From Mesostigma viride (taxonomy: Eukaryota; Streptophyta; Mesostigmatophyceae; Mesostigmatales; Mesostigmataceae): DNA of 64,000 nt. Below the pieces are notes generated by a model. That model was not told where the DNA came from, did no database searches, and was given only the letters and a program-made list of their open reading frames with translations. Location: contig RPFO01000076.1 of the NCBI GenBank assembly GCA_009746045.1, forward strand, positions 4,129,433 to 4,193,432, written 5' to 3'. Positions 5,898 through 52,348 of this stretch are shown in pieces. Numbering within the stretch: position 1 is the first letter of the stretch; each line of letters begins with the position of its first letter. The position numbers and the translations under genes are program-made.

Positions 5898-6242
5898 AGT
5901 TGAGTAACTCTAGAGCCCTAGGATCTGGCTCTAAGTTCCCCATGTCCGTCCGCACGCCTTCCGCTAGCGTCCGCTAAGCCGCCGGCTATAATCCGGCGGT
6001 CCGATGCGGTCGACCGGTCTAAGGGCGGCGCCTAGGGCCGGCGCCACCTAGGCCCCAGTCCGGGGCCTTATCCGGGTCGGTACGGACAGCTAGCTTGTCC
6101 CACGGTTACGGCTAACCGGATAGGGTTTGCTGGCTAAGACATAAACCAGTGGTGGGCCAGCTCCGACAGCAGTTCTCTGTGTTCACCTTATCCCAAGCTC
6201 AACGTGACCGACCGCCATAGCTGAGCCGGTCGGGCTTTAACT
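5898..6242 (+). repeat. C1 5' LTR
   Basis: 345 bp, GC-rich, beginning AGTTGAGTAACT and ending GGGCTTTAACT. It appears identical to 11,707-12,051. It should hold the promoter (U3) and the transcript start, although I see no clear TATA box. The ORF start codon lies only 19 bases after the LTR. Confidence 0.93.
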
Positions 6243-6261
6243 TGTATTCATAAAAATCCCG
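6243..6261 (+). promoter_or_regulatory. C1 primer-binding-site region, complementary to its own 3' UTR
   Basis: The 19 bases between the 5' LTR and the first ATG should contain the primer-binding site, yet there is no TGG start matching a tRNA CCA end. The first 12 bases, TGTATTCATAAA (6,243-6,254), are the exact reverse complement of 11,356-11,367 in the 3' UTR. A comparable pairing exists in C2. Confidence 0.5.
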
Positions 6262-8292
6262 ATGGCTTCCGGTACACGGAGCCGCACGGGCGAACACACA
6301 GATACGCCAAGTGGCGAGGCCGCAGGGTCCGTCCTGCCACGCTTTAGTGCGGACGAGGCCACGAGGTTGATGCAAACCCTCGTGGCGCAACCTGAACTGG
6401 CCAAGCAGTTCAAGCATCTGATGCTTGCTGCTGACGATGCACTAAATCGCGGCCCTCTCAAGCAAACGGAGGTGCCCGCTGATCTACCGGCCGACTATAC
6501 GGCGGACGACGCAGCAGATTTTCTAGCTGCTCTCAAGCGTCTGCGCGATGGACGCGCAGACAAAGATTCGGAGCTGATTGGCAAGTTCCGTGCAGTATTC
6601 TGCAGTACAACAAAGCACCCAAACATTGCCAATCTAGTTCGCATTGCGGACGACAACAAACAAACCTGGGAAGTTTTTTACAACGGTCTAGATGCCCACT
6701 TGTCGCGGTCTAAGGAAGAGGCCGACGAGCAAGCCTTCAACGACTTCGAGGGCTATGCAGTTAATAAGGCAAATTTGCCCGGGGCTGCACGTGATTTCCA
6801 GGTCTTCGTGCACAAGCACAAGCTGCTAGATACTCTCAAGCCCATTTTCCTGTGCAATCGATTTCTCAAGAAATGCGACCTGTCGTCGGATGTGCATCTG
6901 ACCATAGCGACGGAACTCAAAAAGAAGAGTGCCGTCAGTTTCGACGAGGGCATGCTGTATTTGATCTCATGCTTCAAGAGTGCGCAGTCCAAGCCGGCTG
7001 CCTCGGCTGCTCTGCCATCCCTGCGCAAGGTGGATGCCGGCGCGTCTTCTTCTTCAGGCGCAGAGGCTCCAATTACGCGGTCGGAGCTTACGGCCATCCT
7101 GAAAAAGGTCGTCGGCCACGGCAACAACGGGGGCCAGCGAGGGCGCAAGCGCGGGCATGGTGGCGACGCCAAGCAGGGTGATAATCCCCCGGCCAAGCGG
7201 CAGCAGGGGGCGTCTACTGACCGCAAGCAACGCTGTGAGCGCTGCTTCGGACGTCGCCATGTCCGGGATGACTGCCGAGTTCGCCCGGACCTGGAGCTCG
7301 AGGACAACCTTTGCCGCAAGTGCCACGACGTTCTGCGTGGTCACAGCGTGGAGGCGTGCAAGGCCAAGCGCATCGTCGTCCACGGCACACGCGAGGAGTG
7401 GGCAGAGCGACGGGCAGCACGAAAGTCAGGTGAGAGCACGCTCGATACCCCTTCTTTTGCTCAATGCGTCACGCTGAACCGGGCCGTCGTAGAGCCTGAC
7501 GTCGTTCCTAAAAGCAACGTGACTGCATCCTCTGTCTCATTCCGTGATGTGCTCACGCAATCCGTTGATGCTGCTCTGGCTCTGTCGCGCCAGGATCACG
7601 TGCTTCCTGAGCACGGGTCTACAATGCGTGACCTAAGCAATGTGGTGTCTTCTAGGTCGGGTGTGTACAACGCCGAGCGACCAAGCACTACTGCAGCACC
7701 CCAGCTAGATACTGGGGCGGTTGGGCCTATGAGGAATGTTGTGACAGTGCAAGAGAATGCTGGGCGGGCAGATGTTCTCGGTACACACCACCCTAGTGTG
7801 GATCTTCACATTGGCAAGGTGCTCACACGGGCGGCCTTTCGTGCAGCCTCTGAAGCTGCCCAGTTAGCCAATGTCACTACCCCAGTAGTCACCCCACCTG
7901 TTGAGAATCCTGACAATGCCACTGCACCTCAGGCTGTCACCCTGAAACTGTTAGCATACCAGATGCACCGTGCATACGGGCATGAGGCCCAAGCCGAGGT
8001 AGAGGGGGCACACATGTTGGGGGCACCTTTATACAACGAGCTGAAGAATGTGCGTGCTCAGTGTCCTGCCTGCATCAAGATCAGGAAGAAGTCGCGTAGG
8101 CGGCATGCCAAGACTCCACCCTTGGAGCGAGGGTACCTTGTGGGGGATGTCATGCACATGGAAGGGGGGGACACCTATTTCATAGTCAAGGATAGGTTCA
8201 GCAAGGCCACCTACATTGAGCCGCTGCCCACATGTTTGAGGCTGACCTGCACAGGGCTATCAAGATCAGCCTGGCTTTCTTTCATCCCGTAG
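6262..8292 (+). CDS. gag: C1 gag and integrase N-terminal half
   Basis: 676 codons. The N-terminal about 320 residues are a capsid-like region without close motifs. Two zinc knuckles follow: CX2CX4HX4C at residues 325-338 (CERCFGRRHVRDDC) and CX2CX6HX4C at 351-366. After a low-complexity linker comes an integrase zinc-binding motif (H569, H574, C601, C604) and the first catalytic Asp at about residue 629 (GDVMHM). No protease lies between knuckle and integrase; the DTGA at about residue 483 lacks the flanking pattern and the later ILG motif. The start is the first ATG after the LTR. The frame breaks at about 8,225-8,235 and the integrase continues in the ORF from 8,232. Confidence 0.85.
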   Translation: MASGTRSRTGEHTDTPSGEAAGSVLPRFSADEATRLMQTLVAQPELAKQFKHLMLAADDALNRGPLKQTEVPADLPADYTADDAADFLAALKRLRDGRADKDSELIGKFRAVFCSTTKHPNIANLVRIADDNKQTWEVFYNGLDAHLSRSKEEADEQAFNDFEGYAVNKANLPGAARDFQVFVHKHKLLDTLKPIFLCNRFLKKCDLSSDVHLTIATELKKKSAVSFDEGMLYLISCFKSAQSKPAASAALPSLRKVDAGASSSSGAEAPITRSELTAILKKVVGHGNNGGQRGRKRGHGGDAKQGDNPPAKRQQGASTDRKQRCERCFGRRHVRDDCRVRPDLELEDNLCRKCHDVLRGHSVEACKAKRIVVHGTREEWAERRAARKSGESTLDTPSFAQCVTLNRAVVEPDVVPKSNVTASSVSFRDVLTQSVDAALALSRQDHVLPEHGSTMRDLSNVVSSRSGVYNAERPSTTAAPQLDTGAVGPMRNVVTVQENAGRADVLGTHHPSVDLHIGKVLTRAAFRAASEAAQLANVTTPVVTPPVENPDNATAPQAVTLKLLAYQMHRAYGHEAQAEVEGAHMLGAPLYNELKNVRAQCPACIKIRKKSRRRHAKTPPLERGYLVGDVMHMEGGDTYFIVKDRFSKATYIEPLPTCLRLTCTGLSRSAWLSFIP

Positions 8293-9044
8293 TGGAGCTC
8301 ATGCTAGACCAGCAGTTCCGCTGTGTGCAAGGTTTGCCGGGGATGGAGGCCGTGGTCATCGTGGGGCGTGAGGATCACGGCAATATGGGCATGATAGATC
8401 GCACTGTAAGCTATGTCAAGACTGTGGCAGCCAAGCGACAGGATAACCCACATGGCAAATCCTACGCGGTCAAGACGGCGTGGTGCAAGGAGCTCATGCA
8501 TGTGTGCAACCATAGGCACGTGCTTGATGTCAAGGGCTTTGGGCTAGTCACGCCTCGGGGGCTGTCAGCGGGCACCTACTCACCCGAGGTAGTAGAGGCA
8601 TACCAACAGCATCTACAGGATACCGCCGCCAAGCTGCGGCTCAAGGATGCCACGCTGCCTGATTTGTCTAGCGCTTTTGAGGTCGGGCAGTTGGTCATGT
8701 TCCACAAGGAGAGCTCGCCCAGCGGCAAACGGGGCACCATGCAGGGGCCTGGGGCCATCACAAAGTTAGACTGGCCGCTGCGGGTCATAGACATAGAGTG
8801 GAATGATCGGGTGTATAGGGTACCATGGGCATCGGTGGCAGGCTATAAGCAAGGGGATAGCATGGAGAGTGAGCTGGCAGCCAACAGGGCACTGGGGTGG
8901 GTAGTGAAGGATAATGCGCCTGTCGTAGCATCTGAGGTGGTACCCCACGGGTCGCTCCCAGGGGCAGACACAGCTACACCCCCCCCTCCCCTGGGCCCCA
9001 ATATGACCCCGTGGATGGGTGGGATGAGGATGGGGTGGGTTTGA
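8232..9044 (+). CDS. pol: C1 integrase C-terminal half
   Basis: 270 codons, overlapping the upstream ORF by 61 bases in the -1 frame. It contains the second catalytic Asp (D26, MLDQQF). Where C2 has the catalytic Glu (GAVERS) this protein has Asp (D56, GMIDRTV). A region typical of Copia integrase C-termini follows (GQLVMFHKESSPSGKRG, then YRVPWASV). The ORF ends shortly after an 8-base C-run (8,979-8,986), and the acidic linker to the protease-like domain continues in the next -1 frame. Either programmed shifts or sequence errors in homopolymers could explain the breaks. Confidence 0.8.
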   Translation: MFEADLHRAIKISLAFFHPVVELMLDQQFRCVQGLPGMEAVVIVGREDHGNMGMIDRTVSYVKTVAAKRQDNPHGKSYAVKTAWCKELMHVCNHRHVLDVKGFGLVTPRGLSAGTYSPEVVEAYQQHLQDTAAKLRLKDATLPDLSSAFEVGQLVMFHKESSPSGKRGTMQGPGAITKLDWPLRVIDIEWNDRVYRVPWASVAGYKQGDSMESELAANRALGWVVKDNAPVVASEVVPHGSLPGADTATPPPPLGPNMTPWMGGMRMGWV

Positions 9045-11329
9045 CGGGACCTAGTGCACGTAGTGACTCACCTCCTGTGCTAGCCACGGATAATGTGGGA
9101 GGCCCGCCTAGCGTGGCCTCGCCGGAGGGTCAGGGTCCTGCCCATGCGCCTCGCCCACCTAGGGACCTGGCTTCAACGGTCACGGCCTTGTGGCGTGCTC
9201 AGGCGCTTAAAGCGAAAGCTGCATCAGGGGTGGCTCAGGTCAAAACTCTCTCACAGGGGGTCAGGCCGGTTAAGTCAGCCTTGTTTCCTACGTGTAGACC
9301 GTGGCAGCTGGTGGCTGTGGACACGCAAGCATCCGTGTCTATTATCTCTCGTCGGGCAGCCACCCTGTATCCAGTGCTAGAGTCGCCGTACAAATCGGTG
9401 ACCGACTTTGCAGGCACTTCGGCATATCAAGTTACCGGGATGGTGGTGCTGCCGGTGTTGGGCATTGACACGCCGTTTCACGTCGTGGATGGCTACGAGG
9501 ATGTGGCCTTGCTGGGCGAACCTTTCGTATCATACCCGGGGTTCTCAGTGTCCGCTGACTTGCTGTCAGTCGCGGGGGTGGGCAGCATCCCGCTTCGCGA
9601 GTACCACGCTCCATTGGGGGTGGTGGTCGGGCAGCCCGGCGTCGTGCGGCGCTTACCGATGGCGGCGTTTTCCACACCGCCGCTCGTCCAGTCCATCATT
9701 CAGCCTCAGGATTGGCACCCGCGCAGCTTCGGCCTCCACTCACACTCACTGGCGGCGGATAGCCCTGTGACGTGGGAGCAACTTGTCCTGGACTGTCAAG
9801 ATCCTCTCAAGTTTGCTTTGTGGCGCGACGCGTTCATTCGAGCCAAGGAGCAGTGGCGAGAGCGCGAGGTCTACCGAGGATTGGAGAGTGTGCCAGCCGG
9901 GGCCACGCGGTTGCGGTTGAAGTTCGTGCTCACCTACAAGCCGGACGAGACCAACTCTTCGGTGGTGTTCCGGGTAAGGCCCGTGGTCACGGAGACGAAG
10001 GGGTCCTCCCCGCTGGACGCCAAGGATCTTTATACCCCTGGGCTCAACCATGTTTCGCATCGGCTACTGACGGTCATCTACTTGGGCAAGCGGAACGCGG
10101 GCAAGGACTACGGGATGTGGTGCGGTGACTTTCAGCGGGCATTCCTCCACAGCGACGCTGGGGTCGCGCAGCAAACATGGCAAGGCACCCGCTACGTGGT
10201 GAAGGTCCCGGTGGTCTGGCAGGATGGCACCATTGGCAGCGAGTATATCGAGCTGTTGACAGGGGTGGAGGGGCTGCAGAGCTCTCCCATCATCTTCCGC
10301 ATTTCCGCGGAGGAGGTCTTGCAGAGCTTAGGGGCCACGTACCATCGCGCGGATCCTAACTTCTTTGTGGTCCCCACCGGCGTCCCTGGCGAGCCAGCCC
10401 TCTTCGTGTGGCATGGCGATGACTTCAAGCTGGTGGCACCTCGCACCTTTGCTACCCAGTTTCTTGCTGCAGTGGCGGCTAAGTTTCCCCTGGGCAGGGC
10501 GGTGGATCATGAGGAGGGTAAACCCGTGGTGTTTTGCGGCGTGCAGTCTACGTTGCAGCGGGATTCGCGTTCTGGCGAATGGGTCATGCACATGCAGGAT
10601 AGCCGCAACTATGTGGTTGACCTGCTGGCCGACCTCCCGTCCCCGCTGTTGGCAACCCATGGGCCCTCGGTTAAGGGCAAGCTCGGGTGGTTGGCGGACA
10701 CGGTGGCACCTGATTTGGCGGTGCTCGCTCGCCTGCCCGATGATGTGCTGGAAGGACTAGGGTCCATTCATGTTCGGCGGCAGCTGGCCATGACGCCCGG
10801 CATTGTGCTTCGTGGGCTCGATTGCTCACAGCCGGTGCACCTCGAGATAGTGACGGATGCTAATCTAGAGACGCGCACAGTCAGCCAAGTGCGGGCCCGC
10901 ATGGGGGCACTGTTCTTTATTAGCAATGAGGGACAGCCTGGCATGTTGTTAGATTGGTACTCGCGCTTGCACAGCCGCATTGCCACTAGCCCCAACACGG
11001 CTGAATGCCGGGGCATTGTTTCAGCTATCTCACATGGCATGTGGCTGCGGTACTTGCTGGGTTGGGTATTTGGCTCGTGTGGGTTCACTCTTCACTGGAC
11101 TAGCACGGTGCACACTGACTCACAAAGTTGTTTGGCCTTCCTTGACAATCCCTATGCGCGGTCACAGGACGTTGATTACCTCGTACTCGCTGAGGCGGCC
11201 TCCTGCGTCACGCGTCTCCAGCACATCGCGGATGAACTCAATCCCGCGGATGCACTCACCAAGGAGGCGCGGGAGGCTGCCCCGCAGTACGCAGTGTTGC
11301 GCAAGCGCATGACGATGCAACACCCGTGA
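9011..11329 (+). CDS. pol: C1 retropepsin-like domain, reverse transcriptase and RNase H
   Basis: 772 codons, -1 to the preceding ORF. Residues about 95-200 look like a retroviral-type aspartic protease: AVDTQASVSII with D104, and a later ALLGEPF in the position of the ILG motif. The active-site triad reads DTQ, not DTG. Copia-type RT follows: VRPVVTE, YTPG, FQRAFL, then GLQSSPIIF (the place of YGLKQ). The catalytic motif is HGDD at 468-471 instead of YVDD. RNase H starts near D616 (IVTDANL) and carries TAECRG and the final ADALTKE typical of Copia elements. Confidence 0.9.
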   Translation: MDGWDEDGVGLTGPSARSDSPPVLATDNVGGPPSVASPEGQGPAHAPRPPRDLASTVTALWRAQALKAKAASGVAQVKTLSQGVRPVKSALFPTCRPWQLVAVDTQASVSIISRRAATLYPVLESPYKSVTDFAGTSAYQVTGMVVLPVLGIDTPFHVVDGYEDVALLGEPFVSYPGFSVSADLLSVAGVGSIPLREYHAPLGVVVGQPGVVRRLPMAAFSTPPLVQSIIQPQDWHPRSFGLHSHSLAADSPVTWEQLVLDCQDPLKFALWRDAFIRAKEQWREREVYRGLESVPAGATRLRLKFVLTYKPDETNSSVVFRVRPVVTETKGSSPLDAKDLYTPGLNHVSHRLLTVIYLGKRNAGKDYGMWCGDFQRAFLHSDAGVAQQTWQGTRYVVKVPVVWQDGTIGSEYIELLTGVEGLQSSPIIFRISAEEVLQSLGATYHRADPNFFVVPTGVPGEPALFVWHGDDFKLVAPRTFATQFLAAVAAKFPLGRAVDHEEGKPVVFCGVQSTLQRDSRSGEWVMHMQDSRNYVVDLLADLPSPLLATHGPSVKGKLGWLADTVAPDLAVLARLPDDVLEGLGSIHVRRQLAMTPGIVLRGLDCSQPVHLEIVTDANLETRTVSQVRARMGALFFISNEGQPGMLLDWYSRLHSRIATSPNTAECRGIVSAISHGMWLRYLLGWVFGSCGFTLHWTSTVHTDSQSCLAFLDNPYARSQDVDYLVLAEAASCVTRLQHIADELNPADALTKEAREAAPQYAVLRKRMTMQHP

Positions 11330-11706: not shown

Positions 11707-12051
11707 AGTTGAGTAACTCTAGAGCCCTAGGATCTGGCTCTAAGTTCCCCATGTCCGTCCGCACGCCTTCCGCTAGCGTCCGCTAAGCCGCCGGCTATAA
11801 TCCGGCGGTCCGATGCGGTCGACCGGTCTAAGGGCGGCGCCTAGGGCCGGCGCCACCTAGGCCCCAGTCCGGGGCCTTATCCGGGTCGGTACGGACAGCT
11901 AGCTTGTCCCACGGTTACGGCTAACCGGATAGGGTTTGCTGGCTAAGACATAAACCAGTGGTGGGCCAGCTCCGACAGCAGTTCTCTGTGTTCACCTTAT
12001 CCCAAGCTCAACGTGACCGACCGCCATAGCTGAGCCGGTCGGGCTTTAACT
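11707..12051 (+). repeat. C1 3' LTR
   Basis: 345 bp, identical by eye to the 5' LTR at 5,898-6,242, and followed by the target duplication ACGCC at 12,052-12,056. Confidence 0.93.
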
Positions 12052-14279: not shown

Positions 14280-16517
14280 CTACAGCACCCCCATGTCCTC
14301 ATAGAACCAGTAGTCAGCACGACGGGAGAGGGCGTCGGGCACAACATTGTCTGCACCCTTCACGTACTGGATCTTAAAAGGGGCGAACTGGGAAAGGTAC
14401 TCCATCCATCTGGCCTGACGGGGCGTCAGATTTGGCTGCGTCAGGAGGTGAGTCAGGGGCCTATGGTCCGTGTGAATAATCAAACGGGCGGGGTCGAGGT
14501 CTCCTGTCTCGCTGACCGCAACATCAAACTGCGCGCCCAACAGGTGGTGGCGCCATGTGTGGCAACAGTAGACCACAGCCAACAGCTCCGGCTGGTGGAC
14601 CGGATAGTTCCGCTCGGCGGGGATCATTGTGCGGGAGATGTACTCAACCGGTTGCAAGCCCTTGCCTTGGTCCTGCAGGAGGACCCCGCCGATAGCCACC
14701 TTGCTGGCATCCGTCGCGACCACAAAAGGAAGGGACGGGTCTGGGAGCACGAGCACTGGGGCCGCAGTCAAACTGGCCTTGAGGGCCTCAAAGGCCTGCT
14801 GGCACTGTGCCGACCAGACGAAGGACACGCCCTTCTTGAGGAGAGCGTTGATGGGCGACGCGATCGTGGCAAACCTGGGGATGAAGCGTCGATAGTATGA
14901 CGCAATCCCCAGGAAGCTACGCACGCCCTTCACGTCGGTCGGAGCTGGCCACTGTTGGACAGAGGCGATCTTCTCGGGGTCCGTGGCCACGCCTGCTGCA
15001 GAAAGCGTGTGGCCCAGGAACGGGACGCTGCGCCCCGCGCGAACCTTAGCCCTGCGGGCCGAGAGATGCTCGTCTTCCATGATGCGCAGGACCGTATCGA
15101 CGTCCTCCAGGTGCTCCTCGAAGGTCTTGGAGTACACCAGGATGTCATCCAGATAGGCCAGAGCGCAAGTGCGTTTCCAGGACCAGGGCGGCTTGTCCCC
15201 CTTGCGAGGGTCGCGCAGGTCACTGGACACCTGTGGCAGGTGTGCGGTCCCCATGACGGGCCGCAAGATGTCGTTCATGAGCATCTGGAAGCTGGCTGGT
15301 GAGTTGCAGAGCCCCATCGCCGCCACGCGGAACTGGTAGTGTCCGTATGGCGTATTGAAGGCCGTCTTGTGACAGTCCTCTTCAGCGATGCGGAGCTGCC
15401 AAAACCCATCGGCGCAGTCGATCACCGTGAAGCAGGTGGCACCCTGCACCCGATTGAAGATGTCATCAATGCGCGGGAGCGGGTACTTGGACTTGACAGT
15501 GATCGCGTTGAGCTTCCTGTAGTCGGTGACGAGCCGCCACTTGCCCCCAGGCTTGGGCACAAGGAGTACCCCAGCGGAGAAGGGGCTGTTACTGGGCTCA
15601 ATCAGACCACGCTCAAGGAGGGCCATCAGGATCTTCTTGAGCTCCATCAGCTCGACGGGCCCCATCCGGTACATCGGGGACGTGGTGGGCCCGTAGCCTT
15701 CCTTGAGGCGGATATGGTGCAGCACAGAACGGGGCGGGGGAAACTGCGGTGTAGACTCGTCGAACAGCTTCTCCCGCTTGGCCAGGACGGCGTTGTAGCG
15801 CGCGATCTCATCCTCAGTAAAGTCTGTGCCGATCTCCAGCAGCTCCTGAATCAGGGGCACCGAGTCAAGGCGGTACATGTAGTACTCCTTACCCTTCTGC
15901 AGGTTGCGCGCGAGCGTCTTGCTGCTCATCAGCATCTGAGAAGCATGGCGTCGTGGCTTCTCGGGCCCCGCGTCGTGCTGAACGTTGTGCACCTCGGTGC
16001 CATGCGCCAGGTATTCGTGCCGCGGGCACCAGAAGGAGCCATCAGGAAACCAAACCACCCGGCGCTTGACACTGATCGTCACGTCCTGGGCATCCTGCCA
16101 ATCCACGCCCAAGATGATGTCGGCTGCGCCCAGCGGCGCCACTGTGGCTGTTACCTCTACCGGGATGCCCTGGACAACCGCCTTGAGATCCACGAGACCC
16201 GGGGACGGGTGCTTGTTACCATCGGCGTACCGGACGTTGATGGGCGTCGGGTGTGGGCGAATGGTGTAGCCAGCGCGTCGCACCAGGGCCTCATGGATAA
16301 AAGATGTGGTTGCTCCCGTATCCACCATAAACTTAACATCCAGGATCGTCTTCTCCTTCAGAAACGGGTCAAGTGTGGTGGTGGGGAGCGCCAGTCCACC
16401 GCTGAAGACTAGCAGTGTTCTGGTGCTTGGTGCAGAGGGCGGGGAGGCCTTTGGGGCCTGTCCGCCAGACCTATCTACATGATTGGCTGAAGCTGGGTCC
16501 ACCTCGGTCGCCGACAC
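14280..16517 (-). CDS. pol: G2 protease, reverse transcriptase and RNase H
   Basis: 745 codons, uninterrupted. The retropepsin has a normal active site (VDTGATTSF, D66) and ADIILGVDW as its ILG motif. RT follows with LVPKPGGKWRLVTDYRKLN, a conserved DCADGFWQLRI block and the catalytic YLDD at about residue 455. RNase H has DASKVAIGGVLL and TDHRPLTHLL and ends in VPDALSRRADYWFYED. These enzymes cut the polyprotein and copy element RNA to cDNA in virus-like particles. The stop arises at the truncation point, so integrase is missing. The start codon is uncertain because gypsy pol is usually made by frameshifting from gag. Confidence 0.92.
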   Translation of the reverse strand: MSATEVDPASANHVDRSGGQAPKASPPSAPSTRTLLVFSGGLALPTTTLDPFLKEKTILDVKFMVDTGATTSFIHEALVRRAGYTIRPHPTPINVRYADGNKHPSPGLVDLKAVVQGIPVEVTATVAPLGAADIILGVDWQDAQDVTISVKRRVVWFPDGSFWCPRHEYLAHGTEVHNVQHDAGPEKPRRHASQMLMSSKTLARNLQKGKEYYMYRLDSVPLIQELLEIGTDFTEDEIARYNAVLAKREKLFDESTPQFPPPRSVLHHIRLKEGYGPTTSPMYRMGPVELMELKKILMALLERGLIEPSNSPFSAGVLLVPKPGGKWRLVTDYRKLNAITVKSKYPLPRIDDIFNRVQGATCFTVIDCADGFWQLRIAEEDCHKTAFNTPYGHYQFRVAAMGLCNSPASFQMLMNDILRPVMGTAHLPQVSSDLRDPRKGDKPPWSWKRTCALAYLDDILVYSKTFEEHLEDVDTVLRIMEDEHLSARRAKVRAGRSVPFLGHTLSAAGVATDPEKIASVQQWPAPTDVKGVRSFLGIASYYRRFIPRFATIASPINALLKKGVSFVWSAQCQQAFEALKASLTAAPVLVLPDPSLPFVVATDASKVAIGGVLLQDQGKGLQPVEYISRTMIPAERNYPVHQPELLAVVYCCHTWRHHLLGAQFDVAVSETGDLDPARLIIHTDHRPLTHLLTQPNLTPRQARWMEYLSQFAPFKIQYVKGADNVVPDALSRRADYWFYEDMGVL

Positions 16518-16600
16518 GTCTGCACCTGAAGAGGGCGGGGAGACCTCTGGGGCCTGCCCGCCAGTCCTATCTACATTATTGCCTGATGCTACATCGGCCT
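16434..16600. repeat. Tandem duplication of about 97 bp at the gag-pol junction of G2
   Basis: Two similar blocks starting at about 16,436 and 16,533 share GAGGGCGGGGAG, TGGGGCCTG, CCGCCAG and CCTATCTACAT in order. The duplication lies in the short region between the gag stop and the protease. Confidence 0.75.
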
Positions 16601-18498
16601 CAGAGTGGCCGCGCCCACATTTGGTGCAGGCGTCTGTTCTACCTGGTTGACTAACTCTACTCCTACTTCTACCCCTGTGGGAAGGGGCACTATGCGAGGA
16701 TCGCGGGGCCGGGAGGCCGCCTCGTCCGACCGCCCGGTCTCCCCTTCCCCCTCATCCGAGTCGTCGTCGTCGCCGGGATTGAGCGCCTCATACTCGTCAC
16801 CCTCAGCCTGCTGCTGCGCCAGGATCTCATTGAGCTCGCGCACCGTCCGAGAGAACGACGCTGGGAAGCGGGGTGTCTGGAACTGGTTGGGCTGCGTGCG
16901 CGCGTCGCGCAGCTTGGCAGCCCGCGCGCCTGCGTTGCGCGGGCGAGCATCCCGCGCTGCCGGCGCTGGGCGCTTCTCAAAGGCGGGACCAGAAAACTTG
17001 GGGGCCTCCTTGGTGGCCTCCGTCGCCGTGCTGGTGCGCGCCTTGAGGCGCGGGCAGTCCTTCTTGAGGTGCCCGACCTCGTGACACATGAAACAGCGGG
17101 CCTTGGACGCATCGATGGCGTGCAGTTGGGTGGCCGGCTGCTCGTCGTCATTGGACTCCTCCCCCTCCGACGGGTCGGGTTCCACTTCAGTGAAGTGGAC
17201 ACGGCGTGTCATCGTGGATGAGGCGAACCGGCGGGTGCTGGTGTAGCGCGGCTGCTTGATGACGTCGGCCACCTGTAGAAGGTACTGCTGGACAGCGTGG
17301 ATGTCAAGCTTGTCCCAGGGTACCTCTGCATAGTGCTTCTTAACCTCAGCGAGGAGGTCAGGATGGATGGCCTCCAGAAACCGAATCTTGTACTCGGTCC
17401 ACGTCAGGTCCCCGGTCAGCCGCGCCGCAAAGGAGTCAAAAGTGGTGAGGAACTCCGCCAAGTCAGTGTTGCCCTGACGTAGGCGGCCGAACTCAGACCG
17501 CTCGGTCAGTCGATAGCCGGGAGGGATGAGCTTGCGCCGGATGCGCTCGTGCAGTTCCTCGACCGTCTGCGGGTATGACTGGGCTGCCACACTCTCAACG
17601 TTAAGCATCCCGACCACTGATGGGTCCATATACACTTCACCACCACGTAGGGGATCAAAACCTTGGTGGCCAGCTGCCACTCATGGTGTTCACACCAGAC
17701 GGTGTACAACTGTTGCCACATACGGGCCCACTCGTCGATCTCACGGGGAGTCATGCCCGCATGGAGCTTGGGCACCGCCTTAAAATCTGGCATAGGCGGG
17801 GCCTTGACAGGGTCAGGACGCAAGGGGCCGCCCTTGCTGCAGTACGCGGGGCTGGAAAAGGTGAGGGGCTCGTGCCGACGCGCCCGCATCTCCTGTTGAG
17901 AGCCCCGTCCTGTGGGCTGGTCCTGCCCACGTAGGGACACAAAGGTGTCCTCCTCACGCTCGGGATCGAGGTCGCCGGACTCTCGGCGGGGCGTCACGGA
18001 CACCCGCTGTGACGCAAAGGGGGCTGACTCACGCCGAACGCGAACGGAGGTGGGATGCTCATAACCGGGGTCGTCCAGGGGCAGCCGACTGAAGTTGGCG
18101 TTAGTGGGCGCGCTCCTTGCTGGGAGGGGGGTGGGTACCGTGGGAAAGGGACCCGGGGGATCGTAGTAGTCCTCCTCCTCAGGATCGGTCTGCACGTGAG
18201 CCGACCCTGACGCCTGTGGCGGGGGCCTAGGCCAGCCCTCATTTGCTCCAAAGGAGACCCGACGGGGATCCCTTCCAGGACCCAGCCCCGACCCGCCGCG
18301 GCCACGCCCTGCCCAAGGGTGGGTCAGGCGCGGGCGGCCACGTGCGTACGCCCCCAATTGGGAGGACTGCACGAACTCAGGCGGAGGGGCAAACGGCGAG
18401 CTAGCTACCGAGCTGTCCGCGGCCTCTATCTCCTCATCCTCCTCCTGCACGACTTCCACAGATGGTGGTCGCTGCGTAGGAGGTACCCTGTCCAGTTA
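16589..18498 (-). pseudogene. gag: G2 gag with CCHC knuckle, one frameshift
   Basis: The N-terminal part (18,459-17,506) is proline/arginine-rich and disordered-looking, ending in the capsid start PDFKAVPKLHAGMTPREIDEW. The frame changes at about 17,640-17,650. The second part (17,680-16,589, 363 codons) continues the capsid region (FGRLRQGNTDLAEF, EYKIRFLEAIHP) and holds the knuckle CFMCHEVGHLKKDC, followed by an acidic C-terminus. The frame stays open upstream of the GTG at 18,459 to a stop at about 18,498, so the true N-terminus is lost or lies in removed DNA. Confidence 0.8.
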
Positions 18499-22699: not shown

Positions 22700-23130
22700 A
22701 AGATCTCATACATCAACCTAGGCCCAAAATAACTAGTCCGAATCACACAAACTATCATAGTTCCATACAAAAGTCCTGACCAAGGGACAATTCCCAAATT
22801 ACGTCCCGAAATGAGTCCCAAAGTCCTACGGACTATGACAACAAGCCAAAATACATAATTTATTCCATTGTTGCGCCCGTTCCAAGGGTCGGGCACGCAA
22901 CACTACATCTGGCCATTGCTTGTTTTTTTTTTTATCTTTGCTTGCCGATAGAGTTACACAACGCCGCGTTACTTTGGTATGTAGAGCTAGAACGCTAGTA
23001 ACCCTGAATCTTGCCATTGAATCTTGCCTGGCAAGGTCAGTGTCGTGTTAAGTGATGTATCTGTATTTCTTACCGTTGCTTCAATGCATTCTCTGTGGTT
23101 GGTTCTTTCCTTGCCTGTTTCTTTTTGCAG
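22700..23130. other. Flank upstream of the CACTA transposase exon
   Basis: Contains a 12-base T-run and an intron-like end (TTCTTTTTGCAG, ending at 23,130). A possible donor GTCAGT at about 23,036 would give an intron of about 95 bp, but the frame before it meets a stop within ten codons. The 5' exons of the transposase gene are therefore missing or decayed. Confidence 0.45.
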
Positions 23131-23856
23131 ACTGTCCGGCTGTACAACATGTAAAAAATCTTTACCCGCAGTTTCGTACTGAGCTGCGTAATCTTATATT
23201 CGGGATGGCGGTTGACGGAGTGTGTCCGCGTAGCTTTATGGGAAACTATTCTTGCTGGCTAGCTTTTATGGCTTGCTACAATTTACCTGAGTGGGTATTT
23301 GTCAACAAGAACTTCTCACCTATGGTTCTGCTGATAAGTGCCGCCAAGGGCAAGGCTCCAAAAAGAATGCAGGTGTACTGGGAGTTGGCGGTTGATGAGC
23401 TTGTGGCGATGTGGAATGGTTTTTATGTATGCGACATCGTGGATGACCATGGCGGCCATTTACAACCTGTGCGCCTGCAGGCGCTCCTACTGTGGGTAAT
23501 CCACGACTACACAGCTTTTGCAAAGTCACTAAACATCCCAGATGCTGGATACTGCGGCTGCATGTTACATGGGCCAGAATGGGAAGCAACTTTTTTTTCC
23601 AATGGGAAGCTTGTGTGCTTAGGGCACTCTACGCTTTTGAAGGAAGGTGACCCTGCGCGACCATCCGGGACTGGAGCTGCCCCTCCAGAAATGGATTATT
23701 ATGATGGGTACCTGAAATATTGTCGGGAAGAGTTGGGGGTGCAACCTGAAATATTCGGCAAGCTGCCGTACTGGACCAAGCTGTTAATTCGACATCTGGT
23801 GGATGAGTTTCACCTTGGCCCCAACTGCCTGCTCCGGATAGTCAACTGCACCAGCG
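23131..23856 (+). pseudogene. CACTA (En/Spm) transposase Tnp2-type, exon with Transposase_21 core
   Basis: The translation follows the plant Tnp2/Transposase_21 pattern. It has a start like 'RNLIFGMAVDGVCP' (family: RN..LGLATDGFNP), YNLPEWV (family YNLPPW), a segment matching IDVYLxPLIDDLxxLW (MQVYWELAVDELVAMW), then an ALLLWVIHDYTAF block, and finally LPYWTKLLIRHLVDEFH (family LPYW..L.LRHNLD.MH). The 3' end has a GTAAGT donor at 23,857 in phase 1. The exon itself is open. The enzyme cuts CACTA element ends. The N-terminal zinc-finger exons are not found, and the next exon is interrupted. Confidence 0.88.
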
Positions 23857-24017
23857 GTAAGTAGCACGCGACAGTGTTCTTTTTTTTTCTAGTGTGCAGT
23901 TTGTAAACTTTGTCATATGCAAGGGACAAATTTTTGTTACATGCTTATTGATTGATTATTGATTGTGCGTTTCGTTGATATTGTGTTGTCCTTTGTGGCC
24001 TTTTTTATTATGTGCAG

Positions 24018-24130: not shown

Positions 24131-24422
24131 ATTTCTGAGCTATCTGCTCATTTTATAGTTATGTTGCGGCGGGCTCAAAGGGGGCCGATCTGCCGCCTGT
24201 AGCGTAGCTCTACCGTACGTCACCTACACCATGTTAGGTGCTTGTTGTTACTTAGGACTAGAGAGAGAAAGGGACCGGCGGTGCGCCGGTACTAGTGCCT
24301 ACTGGCAACCGTGCCCGCCCTTGATTGAGGGGGGCGCGGCGCCTTGAGACATGTGCTTTGTTTTCCATTTTCACACCGTACTTAGAGTGGTGTGGTGAAC
24401 GTAGGGAGGCCTTTTTGCAGCT

Positions 24423-25165
24423 TCGCAACTTGATCCCAGCATTTGCTGGCAAGGTCGGCTGGCCGCTATGGCGGCTGCGCTGAATGTAAGACGATGCTAT
24501 CGATCGGCCTCTCCGGGCGTGGAGAGGCCTGGAAAAAAAGTCTTTATGATCGCCACCTACCGTTACAGGCCACGGTAATGGTTGTTGGGTGGGGGGCTCT
24601 ACGATTTGAGTAAAAGGGTGTGATTTCCGGCGCTGGGCCCACTGACGATTCCCCTCTACCCCTGGGTGCGGCAAGCAGCTTCCTGACACTGGGGAAGCTG
24701 CGTTTTTAGTCGGACAACGTCAGGGAAGGAGCCATACAGGCCAGGGCCAGCGGCTACGGTGGAAAGAATAACAGGTGGAGGCGAATCTGCCTTAAACGTG
24801 GAGATGGCTAGCGCGGGGTGCCAGGGTAGCCCATAACTACCAGGAGCCTGACAGCGGACCCGATCTTTCGGCCTGTGGCCAGACGGGAGTTTCGGGGAGG
24901 ATGCGGGGCTGGAGCGAATCTTGGTGGGAGGAGCGCGCTCTTCATAATTGCCCAGTTTTTCAGCAAAGGCAGCGGCTGCCGTGGGTCGGGGGGGGTCCTG
25001 TCGGCATGGGGAGGTCGGCAGGCACTCTGTACCCTCTCGGCGCTCCGGCGAGCAGGCCCCTTCTGCCCTTGGCGATAAGGGAGAGGTGGGAAGCTGCGGA
25101 AAACCGTGGGTATTCATGCGCACTTACAAAAAATCTGGTTAAGAAATTCTACAGCGCCTGGCAAG
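24423..25165. other. Cargo segment unique to copy L
   Basis: About 740 bp lying between modules M1 and M2. Copy R has a different sequence of similar length (29,704-30,437) in this place. No recognisable protein domain in either frame set. It could be captured genomic DNA. Confidence 0.6.
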
Positions 25166-25185
25166 CCTGGAAAAAAATTTTCCCC

Positions 25186-25275
25186 TCGCGGGGGGCGCGT
25201 GAAAGGCTCCGCTACGCCCGCCCAAAGGCGGCGGGCTCCGCTTTGCCTTTGCCGTTTTCACGCGCCCCCCACGAG
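25186..25275. repeat. GC-rich hairpin in module M2
   Basis: CGCGGGGGGCGCGTGAAA and TTTCACGCGCCCCCCACG flank a short loop. In copy R (29,593-29,690) the stem is longer, because CGGCAAAGG and CCTTTGCCG also pair. Confidence 0.85.
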
Positions 25276-26490
25276 GGGGGGTGCGTGTGGAACCCGGCAG
25301 TGCGGTCCGGCTTTGTTTTAAGAAAATGCATTATATACCATAATAAAGCTCCACTCGGCTGCGGCTGCGCCAAGGCTCGTGATAATAAAGCTCGGATCGG
25401 CTGCGCCATGGCGATGGTGAGCCTTGGCGCTAGGAGGTCCGCAGCCATCATTATCACCACGATGGGGGGTAATGGAGCCAGTGGCAGTGGCTCTACCCTC
25501 GGGAAATCCCAGCGGCTTTGCCGGTGGGCTGGTGATGGTGGTTGGGTGAGCTGGAGACGTTCCCAGGTGGCATAAGTCCTAAAGCGGCAGCACTGGGATG
25601 CGCCCCTCTAAGAAGGGGAACGCATGTGGCTCCGCCCTGCGTCCGCCGGGAGACCGTAGCGGCCACACGGGGGCGGATAGGGGGGCATCATCATGCCAAC
25701 AAGAGCCCAGCATTCCAAGTGGTTGCGTTCCTACCACCAGGGCTGGAAACGGCCTGGGTGGCCAGAGATGGTGATGTGGGACAAGATTGGACCAAGGGGG
25801 CTTGTGCTGGGCCCCAGCATGGTGAACTGGCCTAACTTGACAATGACTTGTACAATGATTTTGAGGGTGTGGCTAGGCTCAACTGTTAAAGCCTGCACAC
25901 ACTTATTGTAATAAACTTGTTTCTCTGGTAGGAAGGCACTCCAATGGACCTTAGCTTCAGCACCTATTTTCTGAGCTATCTGCTCATTTTATAGTTATGT
26001 TGCGGCGGGCTCAAAGGGGGCCGATCTGCCGCCTGTAGCGTAGCTCTACCGTACGTCACCTACACCATGTTAGGTGCTTGTTGTTACTTAGGACTAGAGA
26101 GAGAAAGGGACCGGCGGTGCGCCGGTACTAGTGCCTACTGGCAACCGTGCCCGCCCTTGATTGAGGGGGGCGCGGCGCCTTGAGACATGTGCTTTGTTTT
26201 CCATTTTCACACCGTACTTAGAGTGGTGTGGTGAACGTAGGGAGGCCTTTTTGCAGCTCCCACCCACCCACCCTCGCTGCTGTTGGGGACAAGATTGGAC
26301 CAAGGGGGCATGTGCTGGGCCCCAGCATGGTGAACTGGCCTAACTTGACAATGACTTTTGAGGGTCTAATTTGACAATGATTTTGAGGGTGTGGCTAGGC
26401 TCAACTGTTAAAGCCTGCACACACTTATTGTAATAAACTTGTTTATCTGGTAGGAGGGCACTCCAATGGACCTTAGCTTCAGCACCTATT

Positions 26491-26562
26491 AACCCAAGCA
26501 TTAAAAAAATTCTCGACATCCACCATGTCAACACACGTCGGAGGAGAAAGCGGCCACCCGTG
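26491..26562 (+). pseudogene. CACTA transposase, second exon, right part
   Basis: 24 codons (start NPSIKKILDIHHVNTRRRRK) in frame with 24,130 once the modular element is removed. It ends at a GTATGT donor (26,563) in phase 0. The next recognisable exon at 31,556 needs phase 1, so at least one further exon is missing or this boundary is wrong. Confidence 0.5.
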
Positions 26563-26669
26563 GTATGTCTGTGGATGTGTATATGCTTTTTTTATTGGAA
26601 TTGGTTTGGATGTTGTTTGTTGGTATTTTATATAAAGTGTTTCATGTTGTCATCTGCCAAGATTGCTTA

Positions 26670-28227
26670 CAGAATCGGTTTTCTCTGAATATAGTTTAAT
26701 TAACGCATGCGGGAAAGATAAGGCCGCCATGCCTTGGCCTGGATGTGGAAGGCTGCCTGCGACATGGGCTGACTAATTCGATCTGTACAAAGGGTTTCCT
26801 GCTCGCCCGAATTTTCCTTGGATGACCCGGTTGTTTGTAAGGGTCGGTGGCGGTCCGAGAGAATTAATTGTAGGTTTTATACGACTTCACTTGCAAAGAT
26901 TCGTGTTTGCTTGCACCAGCTGAGGTTAGGTGGGGACCTGTAGGGTCGGCTGGTTGCTTACCGAATCTTTGGCTGATTTGGGTTATTTAGTGAGTCGTGA
27001 TTAATTATTGTATAGTGGATTCGGACCGGCCCAAGGGGTCGATGGGCGAGTTTTATGTTTGTCAGTCTTGGGAACCTTGTACAACTACCTGTACGGTTAA
27101 CGCACTAGCCTGGGGGTGCGTGGCCACGCTGTTTGTAGTGGCGTTTTCAGCACTGTTCAGGCCGGTGTGTGACGCATGCCGGTGTTAATTAATTTAGGAT
27201 GATGTCAGCTTGTGTGTCGGCGGGCCATGCCTTAAGCAAGCTAGGCAGGCAATGATCCGCAATTGTTTCTTTCACAATGGCGGCAATGGCCGCCTGTGCA
27301 AAATTGCACATTCTAGCGCGGGTTGCATCTGTCTTCTAGCCGAGGTAGATGGTGGCACAACCGCTAAGTTGTTCGACCAAGCATAGTATCGTTGGTCGTG
27401 CAACGGAAAGAAAATTTAAATTTACCCCCATGTCGTTTTCCCCGGCTGCGGGTCTTTTTGACATGGGCGAAGGATGGGGCGCTACTCCGGCGGTTGGGCA
27501 GCTTCGGCGGAGCTGTTTATAAGTTTCTAAAACAGCTCTAGTGTCACATCGCAGGCTTGCCACCTTGTGATGGTGCGTGGGACGTGACCTGGACTCAAAA
27601 GGTCCTGAACCAGGTTCCTGTCAGCAACGGCCTGTTTTTTTCATAAATTATTTTTTGTGGCGGCAGGTCAGTTGTCCAGCTGCCCCTGCCGAGGAGGGGT
27701 GGTTGGGGACAATAGGAGCCGCGCGAGAGTTGCGCTCCGAAGCTAGAAATTTCCCTATTGCGAGACTCGAGTTGGGGAGGGCGTCTCAGGGAGGCGAGGC
27801 TACGCCAGACCTTTGTCGTTCCTTTTGATCGTCTCAGCACCTGCTGCGCGGCTCAGTCTATTATGGTCTCGTAAAACCTCTTTCCTTTTTGGACGGTTCC
27901 GGAATTGCGAAATGCTGGCTCTTTTTGAGGGCTTGCTTTTGGGGTGGTCACCGGCTTGTGTTGCATTGAACCAGCGGGCCCCTGCGGGGGTTAATATAGC
28001 CTAGCGCGGGCTGAGTCGCCATTTAAGATGTTGCGACACGCTCTTTCGCGCACGGTGGTCATGAGTCTAATCGGCGCAATGGGGTTGGCGCCAGGGGGGG
28101 GTAATTGGGTGGAGGCTTCTTGCTTCCGCGTGCAGATTGAGAAACCTTAAGGCCACTGTTAACTGCTGCATTTGTGGCAGGGCTCCACTTATTGTATTCA
28201 ATCAAATGCTGGTCTTCTTGGGAGCTG
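26670..28227. repeat. Tandem block Y1
   Basis: Starts TCGGTTTTCTCTG and ends GAGTGATCTTAA. Immediately repeated from 28,228 (Y2). Y1 contains 27,272-28,110, which is absent from Y2, so that 840-bp segment is an insertion in Y1 or a deletion in Y2. Only short ORFs are present. It may be intron DNA of the broken transposase gene. Confidence 0.8.
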
Positions 28228-28449
28228 AGTGATCTTAATCGGTTTTCTCTGAATATAGTTTAATTAACGCATGCGGGAAAGATAAGGCCGCCATGCCTTG
28301 GCCTGGATGTGGAAGGCTGCCTGCGACATGGGCTGACTAATTCGATCTGTACAAAGGGTTTCCTGCTCGCCCGAATTTTCCTTGGATGACCCGGTTGTTT
28401 ATAAGGGTCGGTGGCTGTTAATTAGTGGTACGAGAGAATTAATTGTAGG

Positions 28450-30733
28450 ATAGGTGCTGAAGCTAAGGTCCATTGGAGTGCAGGCTTTAACAGTTGAGCC
28501 TAGCCACACCCTCAAAATCATTGTACAAGTCATTGTCAAGTTAGGCCAGTTCACCATGCTGGGGCCCAGCACATGCCCCCTTGGTCCAATCTTGTCCCCA
28601 ACAGCAGCGAGGGTGGGTGGGTGGGAGCTGCAAAAAGGCCTCCCTACGTTCACCACACCACTCTAAGTACGGTGTGAAAATGGAAAACAAAGCACATGTC
28701 TCAAGGCGCCGCGCCCCCCTCAATCAAGGGCGGGCACGGTTGCCAGTAGGCACTAGTACCGGCGCACCGCCGGTCCCTTTCTCTCTCTAGTCCTAAGTAA
28801 CAACAAGCACCTTACATGGTGTAGGTGACGTACGGTAGAGCTACGCTACAGGCGGCAGATTGGCCCCCTTTGAGCCCGCCGCAACATAACTATAAAATGA
28901 GCAGATAGCTCAGAAAATAGGTGCTGAAGCTAAGGTCCATTGGAGTGCCTTCCTACCAGAGAAACAAGTTTATTACAATAAGTGTGTGCAGGCTTTAACA
29001 GTTGAGCCTAGCCACACCCTCAAAATCATTGTACAAGTCATTGTCAAGTTAGGCCAGTTCACCATGCTGGGGCCCAGCACATGCCCCCTTGGTCCAATCT
29101 TGTCCCACATCACCATCTCTGGCCACCCAGGCCGTTTCCAGCCCTGGTGGTAGGAACGCAACCACTTGGAATGCTGGGCTCTTGTTGGCATGATGATGCC
29201 CCCCTTCCCGCCCCCGTGTGGCCGCTACGGTCTCCCGGCGGACGCAGGGCGGAGCCACATGCGTTCCTCTTCTTAGAGGGGCGCATCCCAGTGCTGCCGC
29301 TTTAGGACTTATGCCACCTGGGAACGTCTCCAGCTCACCCAACCACCATCACCAGCCCACCGGCAAAGCCGCTGGGATTTCCCGAGGGTAGAGCCACTGC
29401 CACTGGCCCCATTACCCCCCATCGTGGTGATAATGATGGCTGCGGACCTCCTAGCGCCAAGGCTCACCATCGCCATGGTGTCACGAGCCTTGGCGCAGCC
29501 GCAGCCGAGTGGAGCTTTATTATGGTATATAATGCATTTTCTTAAAACAAAGCCGGACCGCACTGCCGGGTTCCACACGCACCCCCCCTCGTGGGGGGCG
29601 CGTGAAAACGGCAAAGGCAAAGCGGAGCCCGCTGCCTTTGGGCGGGCGTAGCGGAGCCTTTGCCGTTTTCACGCGCCCCCCGCGAGGGGAAAATTTTTTC
29701 AGGAAAGCTGCGCAAACCATGGGGGTTTCCTTACGGATTACCCCCGAAACCGCGCTGCAGCTTGAATTCCCCCCTCGCCTTGGCACCATGCCCCGCCCTA
29801 ACATCCTTCCCCTTCCCCGCTGTGGACCGTCAGTCCCAACAACTCGTCCCCGTTTAAATTACGCGTCAACGACCCCGCCATTCCGCCCTGGCCGCCGGCC
29901 GCTGCCGACTCAATTAGCACGAGGAAATGTTAGGCTGTTTAGGGTGCTGCCCCCCTTGGCGCTGGGGCTGCAGCCACCCCGCTCCTGTGCTGGCCTGGGG
30001 GCTCGGCTCCGCCTTCTTCCTGCTCGCATAGCGCCCTCATGCACTATCGACATTTATTAGCCAGGCCCAGCGCATCCGATACCCAGCGAATTTGCCTGAG
30101 GCGTAATCCCCCTCCGCCTGTAGCTGTTGCCACCCAAGCACCACGATTGCCCCGCTTTAGTTGTCCGATCAAGAGTCACTCCCGCGTCTATCCAGACCCC
30201 TCCCGCGAGCTCGGGGTGGCGAGTACAACGGGCGAGCAAAAATACACAATCTGGCACTGGCAGCTACCGCCCGCACTTCGAATGGCAAATTCTTGGGGTG
30301 CTGCCGACCCCCGTCGCGCAGCCGTCATAACTTTAAATAAAACAGGCCCCCGAATAATAATTCGGAGGCCGGTAGCTGTGATTTACATTCGGCACCGCCA
30401 TAGCAGTGCACACACGCCCCAGAATGGGCCGTCGACAGAGCTGCAAAAAGGCCTCCCTACGTTCACCACACCACTCTAAGTACGGTGTGAAAATGGAAAA
30501 CAAAGCACATGTCTCAAGGCGCCGCGCCCCCCTCAATCAAGGGCGGGCACGGTTGCCAGTAGGCACTAGTACCGGCGCACCGCCGGTCCCTTTCTCTCTC
30601 TAGTCCTAAGTAACAACAAGCACCTAACATGGTGTAGGTGACGTACGGTAGAGCTACGCTACAGGCGGCAGATCGGCCCCCTTTGAGCCCGCCGCACCAT
30701 AATAACTATAAAATGAGCAGATAGCTCAGAAAT
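28450..30733 (-). mobile_element. Modular element, copy R (inverted)
   Basis: Reverse orientation of copy L, with the same module order: M3, spacer, M1, M3, M2, cargo, M1 along the plus strand. It begins ATAGGTGCTG and ends GCTCAGAAAT, the exact complements of the ends of copy L. The cargo (29,704-30,437) differs from that of copy L. The L and R arms together could form a very large cruciform about 4.3 kb apart at their start points. Confidence 0.78.
29704..30437. other. Cargo segment unique to copy R
   Basis: About 734 bp between M2 and M1 of copy R. Pro/Arg-coding, C-rich on the plus strand, with no recognised domain. An unrelated sequence occupies the same place in copy L. Confidence 0.6.
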
Positions 30734-31555
30734 TTTTTACGACTTCACTTGCAAAGATTCGTGTTTGCTTGCACCAGCTGAGGTTAGGTGGGGACCTGTA
30801 GGGTCGGCTGGTTGCTTACCGAATCTTTGGCTGATTTGGGTTATTTAGTGAGTCGTGATTAATTATTGTATAGTGGATTCGGACCGGCCCAAGGGGTCGA
30901 TGGGCGAGTTTTATGTTTGTCAGTCTTGGGAACCTTGTACAACTACCTGTACGGTTAACGCACTAGCCTGGGGGTGCGTGGCCACGCTGTTTGTAGTGGC
31001 GTTTTCAGCACTGTTCAGGCCGGTGTGTGACGCATGCCGGTGTTAATTAATTTAGGATGATGTCAGCTTGTGTGTCGGCGGGCCATGCCTTAAGCAAGCT
31101 AGGCAGGCAATGATCCGCAATTGTTTCTTTCCCCTCCCTCCCACCCTGGAGGCTTCTTGCTTCCGCGTGCGGATTGAGAAACCACTGTTAACTGCTGCAT
31201 TTGTGGCAGGGCTCCACTTATTGTATTCAATCAAATGCTGGTCTTCTTGGGAGCTGAGTGATCTTAAACTGCTGTGTTGGTCCATAGATCCCATGACGTA
31301 GTCCACTGTCATTAGATATTTCTGTGTACCACATCAAACCAAGTGCCCTTGTTAGGGTAAACATGTTGCTTGTAAGACTTCCTTTCATTTTTTCAATAAC
31401 TATTTATGGGGTTAGTGTCAGGATTTGCCGGAGCATTTGGGCTGACAGTGTTTGGCCACTCTGAGAATTCGCCTCTGACATAATTTTCTAATCAAATTGT
31501 CAATGTGATCGATCGTTTACATCTGTGTATCATACCATGTTTCTGTTGAATGCAG

Positions 31556-33854: not shown

Positions 33855-34496
33855 AGTTAGCATATTGGTGATGCAATATGCTAAGCATATCATACTTGAA
33901 GTGGCCTTTCCAACGCCGTGCTAAACGCCTCATTTGGACAAGGAACTTGAGAGTTATCAAGTCCCGAAGTAATGCCGCCGGACGCTACAGCAGTACCAGG
34001 ACTAAGGACACGTGAGGGACAGGGCACGTGGCAGTGTTGGGTGAACCATCACAAGTTACGTGTCACAGGACCGACTGTCACTAGGAGGTACTGTGGTCAA
34101 TATTGGTTGATGGTACCAAGAATGTCACAGGACTTCAGGACTGGCAGTCCTGCAGGCCTGGGATGGACGGGTACTTGTCATGACGGATAAATCCAGAGCG
34201 TTACTGTCATTCATGGAAGGACAGACGTCCTGGATTGATGCAACCAAGGAAATTGACAGTGGCGGACCTGCCAAGGCGTGCAAGGCCTGGCAGCAATGGT
34301 GAGACCTAGAAAGGCTCGGACACAGCAGTGGCCAAGCGTCTTTTCCCAACACCGTCCGTGGGTACTGCCGCCTCAGGCTAGTGACCACAGGGTAGTGAGG
34401 CAACTGTGGTAAAGGTTAAAAGCCGCTGGTTGAAACCATGGCTCCATTCATCACATCTTGGGAAGACCAGAAACTCACTGATCCGCGTTCATCTAA
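33855..34496 (+). repeat. C2 5' LTR
   Basis: 642 bp, starting AGTTAGCATATTGG and ending GCGTTCATCTAA. Nearly identical to 41,381-42,022. Its start is also shared with the C3 LTR (58,816 reading leftwards). Confidence 0.93.
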
Positions 34497-36022: not shown

Positions 36023-36054
36023 AGCAAGACAACCTGGATAAATGGCTTGATGAC

Positions 36055-36879: not shown

Positions 36880-36882
36880 CTA

Positions 36883-49737: not shown

Positions 49738-49738
49738 C

Positions 49739-49755
49739 TGGACTCGGAGGAAACT
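49739..49755 (+). promoter_or_regulatory. G4 putative primer-binding site
   Basis: TGGACTCGGAGGAAACT starts one base after the LTR. TGG is the expected complement of a tRNA CCA end. I could not identify the tRNA. The leader from here to gag is about 660 bp without a supported ORF. Confidence 0.5.
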
Positions 49756-52289: not shown

Positions 52290-52348
52290 GAGGCCGGGAG
52301 GGCACTCCGGGCGACACCTTACCCGGCCATGAACAAGTCGCCCAAGTT

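Follow-up and report, generated by a model that had tools for sequence, protein, structure and literature searches.

The order of the Pol domains serves as a defining character of long terminal repeat (LTR) retrotransposon superfamilies, and a 64,000-nucleotide stretch of Mesostigma viride DNA (contig RPFO01000076.1, positions 4,129,433 to 4,193,432; hereafter the window) raises the question of whether a different order has become established. An original prediction, made from the sequence of the window, had proposed that three of its elements, here C1, C2, and C3, are Copia-like and place the protease (PR) behind the integrase (IN), ahead of reverse transcriptase (RT) and RNase H (RH). Our analysis indicates that they very probably represent an LTR retrotransposon lineage with the Pol order IN-PR-RT-RH, in which an ILG-type retropepsin behind IN is combined with a Copia-type RT-RH and, in several families, Gag and Gag-Pol would be produced by UGA readthrough.

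Position and predicted fold of the protease segment

A retropepsin-like segment was located between the IN C-terminal region and RT in all three elements, as had been claimed. The forward-strand C1 segment (9245 to 9607; motif and predicted fold) has its D-T-Q-A triplet at position 9320, residue 129 of a 797-residue open reading frame (ORF) for PR-RT-RH (8936 to 11329) that has matches across the genome, and an LLG loop. In C2, also on the forward strand, the segment (38350 to 38712; motif and predicted fold) shows D-T-N-S and ILG, the triplet being residue 516 of an ORF (36880 to 39078) in which profile scan and alignment place a linker, IN, PR, and the start of RT. The same motifs mark the reverse-strand segment of C3 (61453 to 61815), with the triplet at residue 236 of an ORF of 898 residues, stop to stop (59749 to 62445). 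This ORF, by profile scan, joins the IN C-terminal part, PR, RT, and RH in one frame, so the unbroken reading predicted for C3 stands for these parts, but the N-terminal and core regions of its IN (62489 to 63284, reverse strand) lie in broken frames. The Mesostigma gene model P0002 covers the protein of these regions and is 100% identical to the 898-residue ORF over 24% of the query in a protein search. C3 extends beyond the window edge.

Because C1 needs two frame changes (overlaps at 8220 to 8292 and 8936 to 9044), with IN and PR in neighboring frames only, the one-frame proof of the order rests on other families. IN, PR, RT, and RH share a single frame in the L010 pol (1196 residues), in protein P0001 (1214), and in one copy each of the L055 (1249) and L054 (1344) families. 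Landmarks read in five Pols (P0001, C2, and one copy each of L010, L055, and L054) run in every case from the H-x4-H site and third acid of IN to the DTx triplet and [IL][LI]G loop of PR; the HGDD of RT and AECR of RH follow PR in the four complete Pols, the C2 ORF, barring its start of RT, stopping short of that domain. P0001 by itself matches, in order, the Pfam models rve (residues 214 to 265; E 0.15), gag-asp_proteas (557 to 628; E 0.086), and RVT_2 (751 to 923; E 0.014). PR lies between IN and RT, and a Gmr1-like position of IN, between PR and RT, does not apply.

A motif pair composed after the C1, C2, and C3 segments were already known (hydrophobic-D-[TS]-[NQGA]-[AS]..S, then [ILVA][ILV]G..[FMLW] 48 to 62 residues on) had four matches in the six frames of the window, namely the three segments and one Ty3/gypsy protease. 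None occurred in 60 triplet-shuffled windows, and a chance motif was rejected on this count.

A retropepsin fold is predicted for the segment. The profile search and structure prediction proposed as a check favored this reading: gag-asp_proteas was matched by three of four PR segments (best E 0.0022), and AlphaFold models of the C2 and C1 segments (mean predicted local distance difference test [pLDDT] scores of 65.6 and 61.0, with most core blocks at 75 to 86 and the ends under 50) met retropepsins only among the best 50 structure matches listed for each. When a profile of eight PR segments was compared with the PDB, eight of nine rows were HIV protease, co-linear, at a best E of 0.049; PDB searches by sequence gave no match for the C3 segment alone and one unrelated match for four segments.

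Eight PR segments, when compared, all have the D and T of the triplet, an S five positions further on, a glycine in the D/G-F-x-G region, and the loop G. The D-[TS]-G triplet itself lacks its glycine in all eight, reading DTN in C2, C3, L010, L011, and P0001, DTQ in C1, DTM in L055, and DTK in L054. The loop is ILG, LLG, or LIG in each, and the Copia LLS loop occurs in none. All four printed canonical Copia ORFs of the same genome combine LDSAA or VDTGA with LLS. Given that the canonical Copia families L042, L043, and L044 have DSA as their triplet, the glycine appears not always to be kept among Copia elements in Mesostigma, the protease activity of these families being itself only putative. 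L011, read on the reverse strand in its first 1389 bases, is another DTN-protease family beside C3, and its frame ends inside RT.

The original prediction had seen no protease pattern between the gag zinc knuckle and IN. In C1, C2, L010, and P0001, for which gag or gag-IN stretches were covered, a new PR profile, which was built from these very segments and speaks for the upstream stretch only, matched behind IN but nowhere before it. Copia and gypsy PR profiles found nothing significant in the same stretches (best E 0.78), and rve is the sole Pfam match of P0002, which covers the upstream protein of C3. Bulky hydrophobic residues make up a fraction of 0.20 in the gag-IN linker of L010 (130 residues) and 0.19 in that of P0001 (148), versus 0.36 in the L010 PR. 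The C1 linker does contain an LDTGA string (nucleotides 7705 to 7719), so the claim fails for the bare string but holds for a protease: the string was rejected as one on account of its low-complexity surroundings, a VLG that follows too closely (after about 22 residues), and the lack of any profile match.

Conservation, spread, and affiliation of the new families

Between C2 and C3, the ratio of nonsynonymous to synonymous substitution rates (dN/dS; NG86) was 0.19 for PR, 0.20 for the PR-RT spacer, 0.09 for both the IN C-terminal part and RT-RH, and 1.06 for the IN-PR linker, in a comparison where dS is high and for which a second method gave no result for most pairs. On these values, selection on PR appears strong, if less so than on RT-RH and the C-terminal part of IN, and unlike that on the IN-PR linker. 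Identity between L010 and P0001 is 62.9% in PR, 70.5% in the PR-RT spacer (no gaps), and 58.9% in IN, versus 31.0% in the gag-IN linker and 44.8% in the IN-PR linker. As conservation of the PR-RT spacer equals that of the enzymes, unlike conservation of the IN-PR linker, PR may remain attached to RT.

Only the best candidates were scored in searches of the 440-Mb assembly, so that copy counts are lower bounds. All 38 scored L010 matches (of 10017 candidates) have the 1196-residue frame, covering residues 12 to 1213 or 38 to 1213 of P0001. Full frames were also found in 45 of the 65 scored L054 (P0006) matches (1344 residues), in 13 of the 71 L055 (P0005) match rows (1249 residues), and in 22 of 51 scored matches of the C3 family (1197 residues; known from frame length alone). 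The 64 scored matches of the C1 family, window copy included, are 100% identical over 698 residues, 62 of them with the 797-residue frame. C1 (5898 to 12051) is a very young burst: its LTRs are identical, and the genome has 205 exact copies of a 42-base tag that spans its C8 run. The evidence supports the IN-PR-RT-RH order as real, open in many copies, and common to divergent families, as the original prediction held in arguing against an accident of one copy. A multifamily, recently amplified lineage of this kind would mean that PR, or IN, can relocate without loss of mobility.

Because P0001 reaches a best identity of only 64% in this assembly and is apparently not encoded there, the order seems to be present in another organism or strain as well. 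Protein searches with about 8000 candidates scored in each returned two, three, and three proteins, including further models of the Mesostigma genome, and no relatives were confirmed in IMG/VR and GTDB contigs.

Judged by profiles, RT-RH is of Copia type. Its profile aligned with that of canonical Mesostigma Copia at E 9.1e-16 over 422 columns (hhalign) versus E 0.28 with gypsy; a smaller, earlier set had given E 4e-12 versus 0.33. RVT_2 is the sole RT-core model matched, weakly, by C2, C3, P0001, and P0003, which also match the RNase H model RVT_3 weakly; the C2 match (E 3.4e-4) falls in an RT-RH stretch at 39230 to 40417, forward strand, whose frame is broken from the preceding part. Neither model was matched by C1, L010, L054, or L055. 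RVT_1 had no match in the new elements, whereas two gypsy elements of the window match it at 6.3e-33 and 1.9e-30. With IN before PR and no RVT_1-type RT, the elements would fall outside Ty3/Gypsy. A search of the PDB with the RT sequence gave no match. The intact L054 and L055 Pols matched no Pfam family at E up to 10. Elements of this kind could stay unclassified for that reason, and others like them may go unnoticed in the genomes of other algae.

Canonical Copia elements are abundant in the same genome (all 150 RVT_2 candidates that were scored, out of 1981, exceeded the curated cut-off), and six canonical ORFs scanned carry Pol_BBD, gag_pre-integrs, rve, SH3, and RVT_2 in the usual order. 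The new ORFs match neither gag_pre-integrs nor SH3_retrovirus, which all six canonical ones do; four of four match the rve core weakly. Every new-family RT that reaches the motif reads HGDD, versus HVDD in canonical Copia of this genome. L010, P0001, C2, and C3 have E as the third acid of IN; three multicopy families, C1 (8232 to 8880), L054, and L055, have D instead, giving a DDD set as in mariner-type transposases.

The IN profile met the genome's Copia IN at E 0.44 and its gypsy IN at E 0.24, a comparison of low power in which the Copia-gypsy IN control itself reached only E 0.067; shallow comparisons assigned neither PR nor IN to Copia or gypsy. Against the PDB, 27 of 38 rows for the IN profile were integrases, from E 0.038. 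The best row was an ISCU chain (E 0.028), and the 11 ISCU-like rows were taken as chance. The Copia label of the original prediction thus holds for RT-RH but not for PR, with its ILG rather than LLS loop, and IN shows only weak rve matches.

An RT tree with Copia, also proposed as a check, gave a divided answer. In two trees that omit the partial Copia rows L045, L046, and L050, and in the 15-row case also P0003, canonical Copia holds together (97/97 and 100/100). The 13-row tree unites the new families at 96/93, but with 15 rows and a very long gypsy branch only 24% of bootstrap trees do so. A single origin of the new families is likely on this evidence. A separate deep lineage, ranking beside Copia, Ty3, and Bel, defined by IN-PR-RT-RH, Copia-related RT-RH with HGDD, a non-glycine retropepsin, a DDE/DDD IN, AGTT-ended LTRs, and UGA readthrough, and hidden from profile annotation, is a tentative proposal that we would put forward without yet favoring it.

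Proteolysis and the origin of the order

One point weighs against our interpretation. The triplet glycine is, to our knowledge, nearly fixed in retropepsins, and a working protease without it is the weakest step of the proposal, so that proteolysis by the segment is putative. The residues N, Q, M, or K at this place in eight of eight segments would suit a retropepsin fold that does not cut, kept as a structural or dimerizing piece of Pol, with maturation by a host protease or absent. We consider that improbable in view of the residues invariant in the same eight segments, the purifying selection on PR, and the failure to find another protease in the upstream stretches given; moreover, DSA stands at this place in canonical Copia families of the genome, whose activity is likewise putative. 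For a possible precedent in foamy viruses, a triplet without the glycine, a literature search gave no paper, and it is not used as evidence. Retropepsins lacking the DTG glycine offer material for study of the catalytic loop. Hardly credible is an ordinary Copia element whose segment reflects a chance motif or an error of assembly or frame: frame changes or breaks interrupt each of the window copies C1, C2, and C3, as such an artefact would have it, but the shuffled windows, the fold matches, dozens of open copies on different contigs, and the same order in P0001, a protein apparently from another source, all speak against it.

In the lineage that we propose, the Copia protease ahead of IN would have been lost, with a variable linker in its place, and the ILG-type protease would serve from its new position. 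A variant compatible with this proposal, possible if doubtful, is that IN moved upstream in a PR-RT-RH element rather than PR arriving behind IN. The ILG loop points that way, as the available portion of PMC2774666 assigns LLS, bar very few exceptions, to Ty1/Copia proteases and ILG to the rest; so do the conserved spacer joining PR to RT and an IN profile that matches neither Copia nor gypsy IN. On the other side, RT-RH is of Copia type, every known Ty1/Copia element has its IN between PR and RT according to the same portion of PMC2774666, and the IN and PR profile comparisons are low-powered. By either route, a Copia-type RT can stand beside a PR that does not look like Copia.

Expression signals and comparison with known systems

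In several families, gag and pol share one frame, split by a single TGA followed by C. The 3' part of C2 gag, with a CCHC knuckle (35977 to 36879, forward strand), ends in an in-frame TGA (36877 to 36879) followed by CTA, and the C3 gag end, with a zinc knuckle (63325 to 63609, reverse strand), in a TGA (63325 to 63327) followed by CTT. L010 reads TGA CTT and L055 TGA CGT, as read in five distinct copies and one copy, respectively. A UGA with CUA behind it is known to be leaky, and stop codon readthrough between gag and pol is likely in these algal retrotransposons. No common RNA structure signal was found behind the UGA.

The L054 gag and pol overlap in different frames (L054:1586-1649). A plausible route is a -1 frameshift near the gag stop; a scan of the overlap for XXXYYYZ heptamers gave none. 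In C1, a forward-strand ORF (6241 to 8292) contains gag with zinc-knuckle-like cysteines, a linker, and the IN N-terminal part (H-x4-H, C-x2-C, and the first catalytic D), assigned by alignment and matching no Pfam family; a second ORF (8220 to 9044), likewise aligned, holds the remaining IN (second D, third acidic residue D, and C-terminal GKRG region). The C8 run at 8979 to 8986, within the IN/PR frame overlap and the 42-base tag, is a candidate slippage site. The frame changes and the UGA may be programmed events.

Translation would mostly end at the UGA to yield Gag, with occasional readthrough giving Gag-IN-PR-RT-RH; C1 and the L054 family would reach the later domains by frame changes instead. 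In the particle, the Pol parts would pair so that two PR segments form one retropepsin, which would cut Gag from IN and IN from PR in loose linkers and might act while still joined to RT.

The C1 LTRs (345 bp; 5898 to 6242 and 11707 to 12051, forward strand) are 100% identical, end in AGTT...AACT, and are flanked by a 5-bp target duplication, ACGCC. Those of C2 (643 bp, 99.84% identical; 33854 to 34496 and 41380 to 42022, forward strand) end in (G)AGTT...TAA, with a flanking duplication TATAC (or TATACG). The usual TG...CA is absent in C1 and C2, the two elements in which both ends were read. The new elements resemble Ty1/Copia in their RT-RH by profile, the H-x4-H zinc site before the IN core, and the 5-bp duplication of C1; they differ in a PR placed after IN, the ILG rather than LLS loop, HGDD rather than the HVDD of the genome's canonical Copia, the C1 LTR ends, and the UGA between gag and pol of several families.

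Gammaretroviruses make Gag-Pol by readthrough of one in-frame stop, a UAG with a downstream pseudoknot, and have the order PR-RT-RH-IN. The one-stop readthrough proposed here would be shared with them, whereas the new elements have UGA-C, no common downstream fold, and IN-PR-RT-RH. The spumaretroviral PR-RT structure 7o0g is among the structure matches listed for the C2 model; there too PR is N-terminal to RT, and the two may be similarly unseparated in the new elements. The IN of spumaviruses is C-terminal, unlike that of the new elements.

In Gmr1, a Ty3/Gypsy lineage with a Copia-like IN position, a rearranged IN likewise marks the lineage, but its IN is downstream of PR, according to the available portion of PMC2774666. 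The same source describes the caulimovirus PVCV as having IN upstream of the protease, as here, but also upstream of gag, whereas the new IN lies between gag and PR. Of the five integrase positions given in that portion, none is between gag and PR, and the available main text of PMC7027972 lacks the words copia and gypsy. The suggestion that the order is undescribed is supported to the extent that this list lacks it and that none of the papers met in searches for the order announces it in its title or the opening of its abstract; absence from print is unproved, as most of the subscription literature lay outside the search.

The window also holds two Ty3/gypsy elements, one at 49209 to 57673 whose repeat arms are separated by about 7.93 kb and whose frames for PR-RT-RH and for IN are open, and one at 14280 to 18495 on the reverse strand with a DTGA protease and RVT_1. 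A fragment of a tnp2-type DNA transposase (Transposase_21, E 4.3e-24) lies at 23052 to 23864 on the forward strand. Two clusters of long repeats complete the picture: a nested inverted and direct repeat cluster at 24132 to 31267 with 952-nt arms (99%), perhaps copies of a DNA transposon, and a second inverted repeat cluster at 42473 to 45249 with 664-nt arms (99%).

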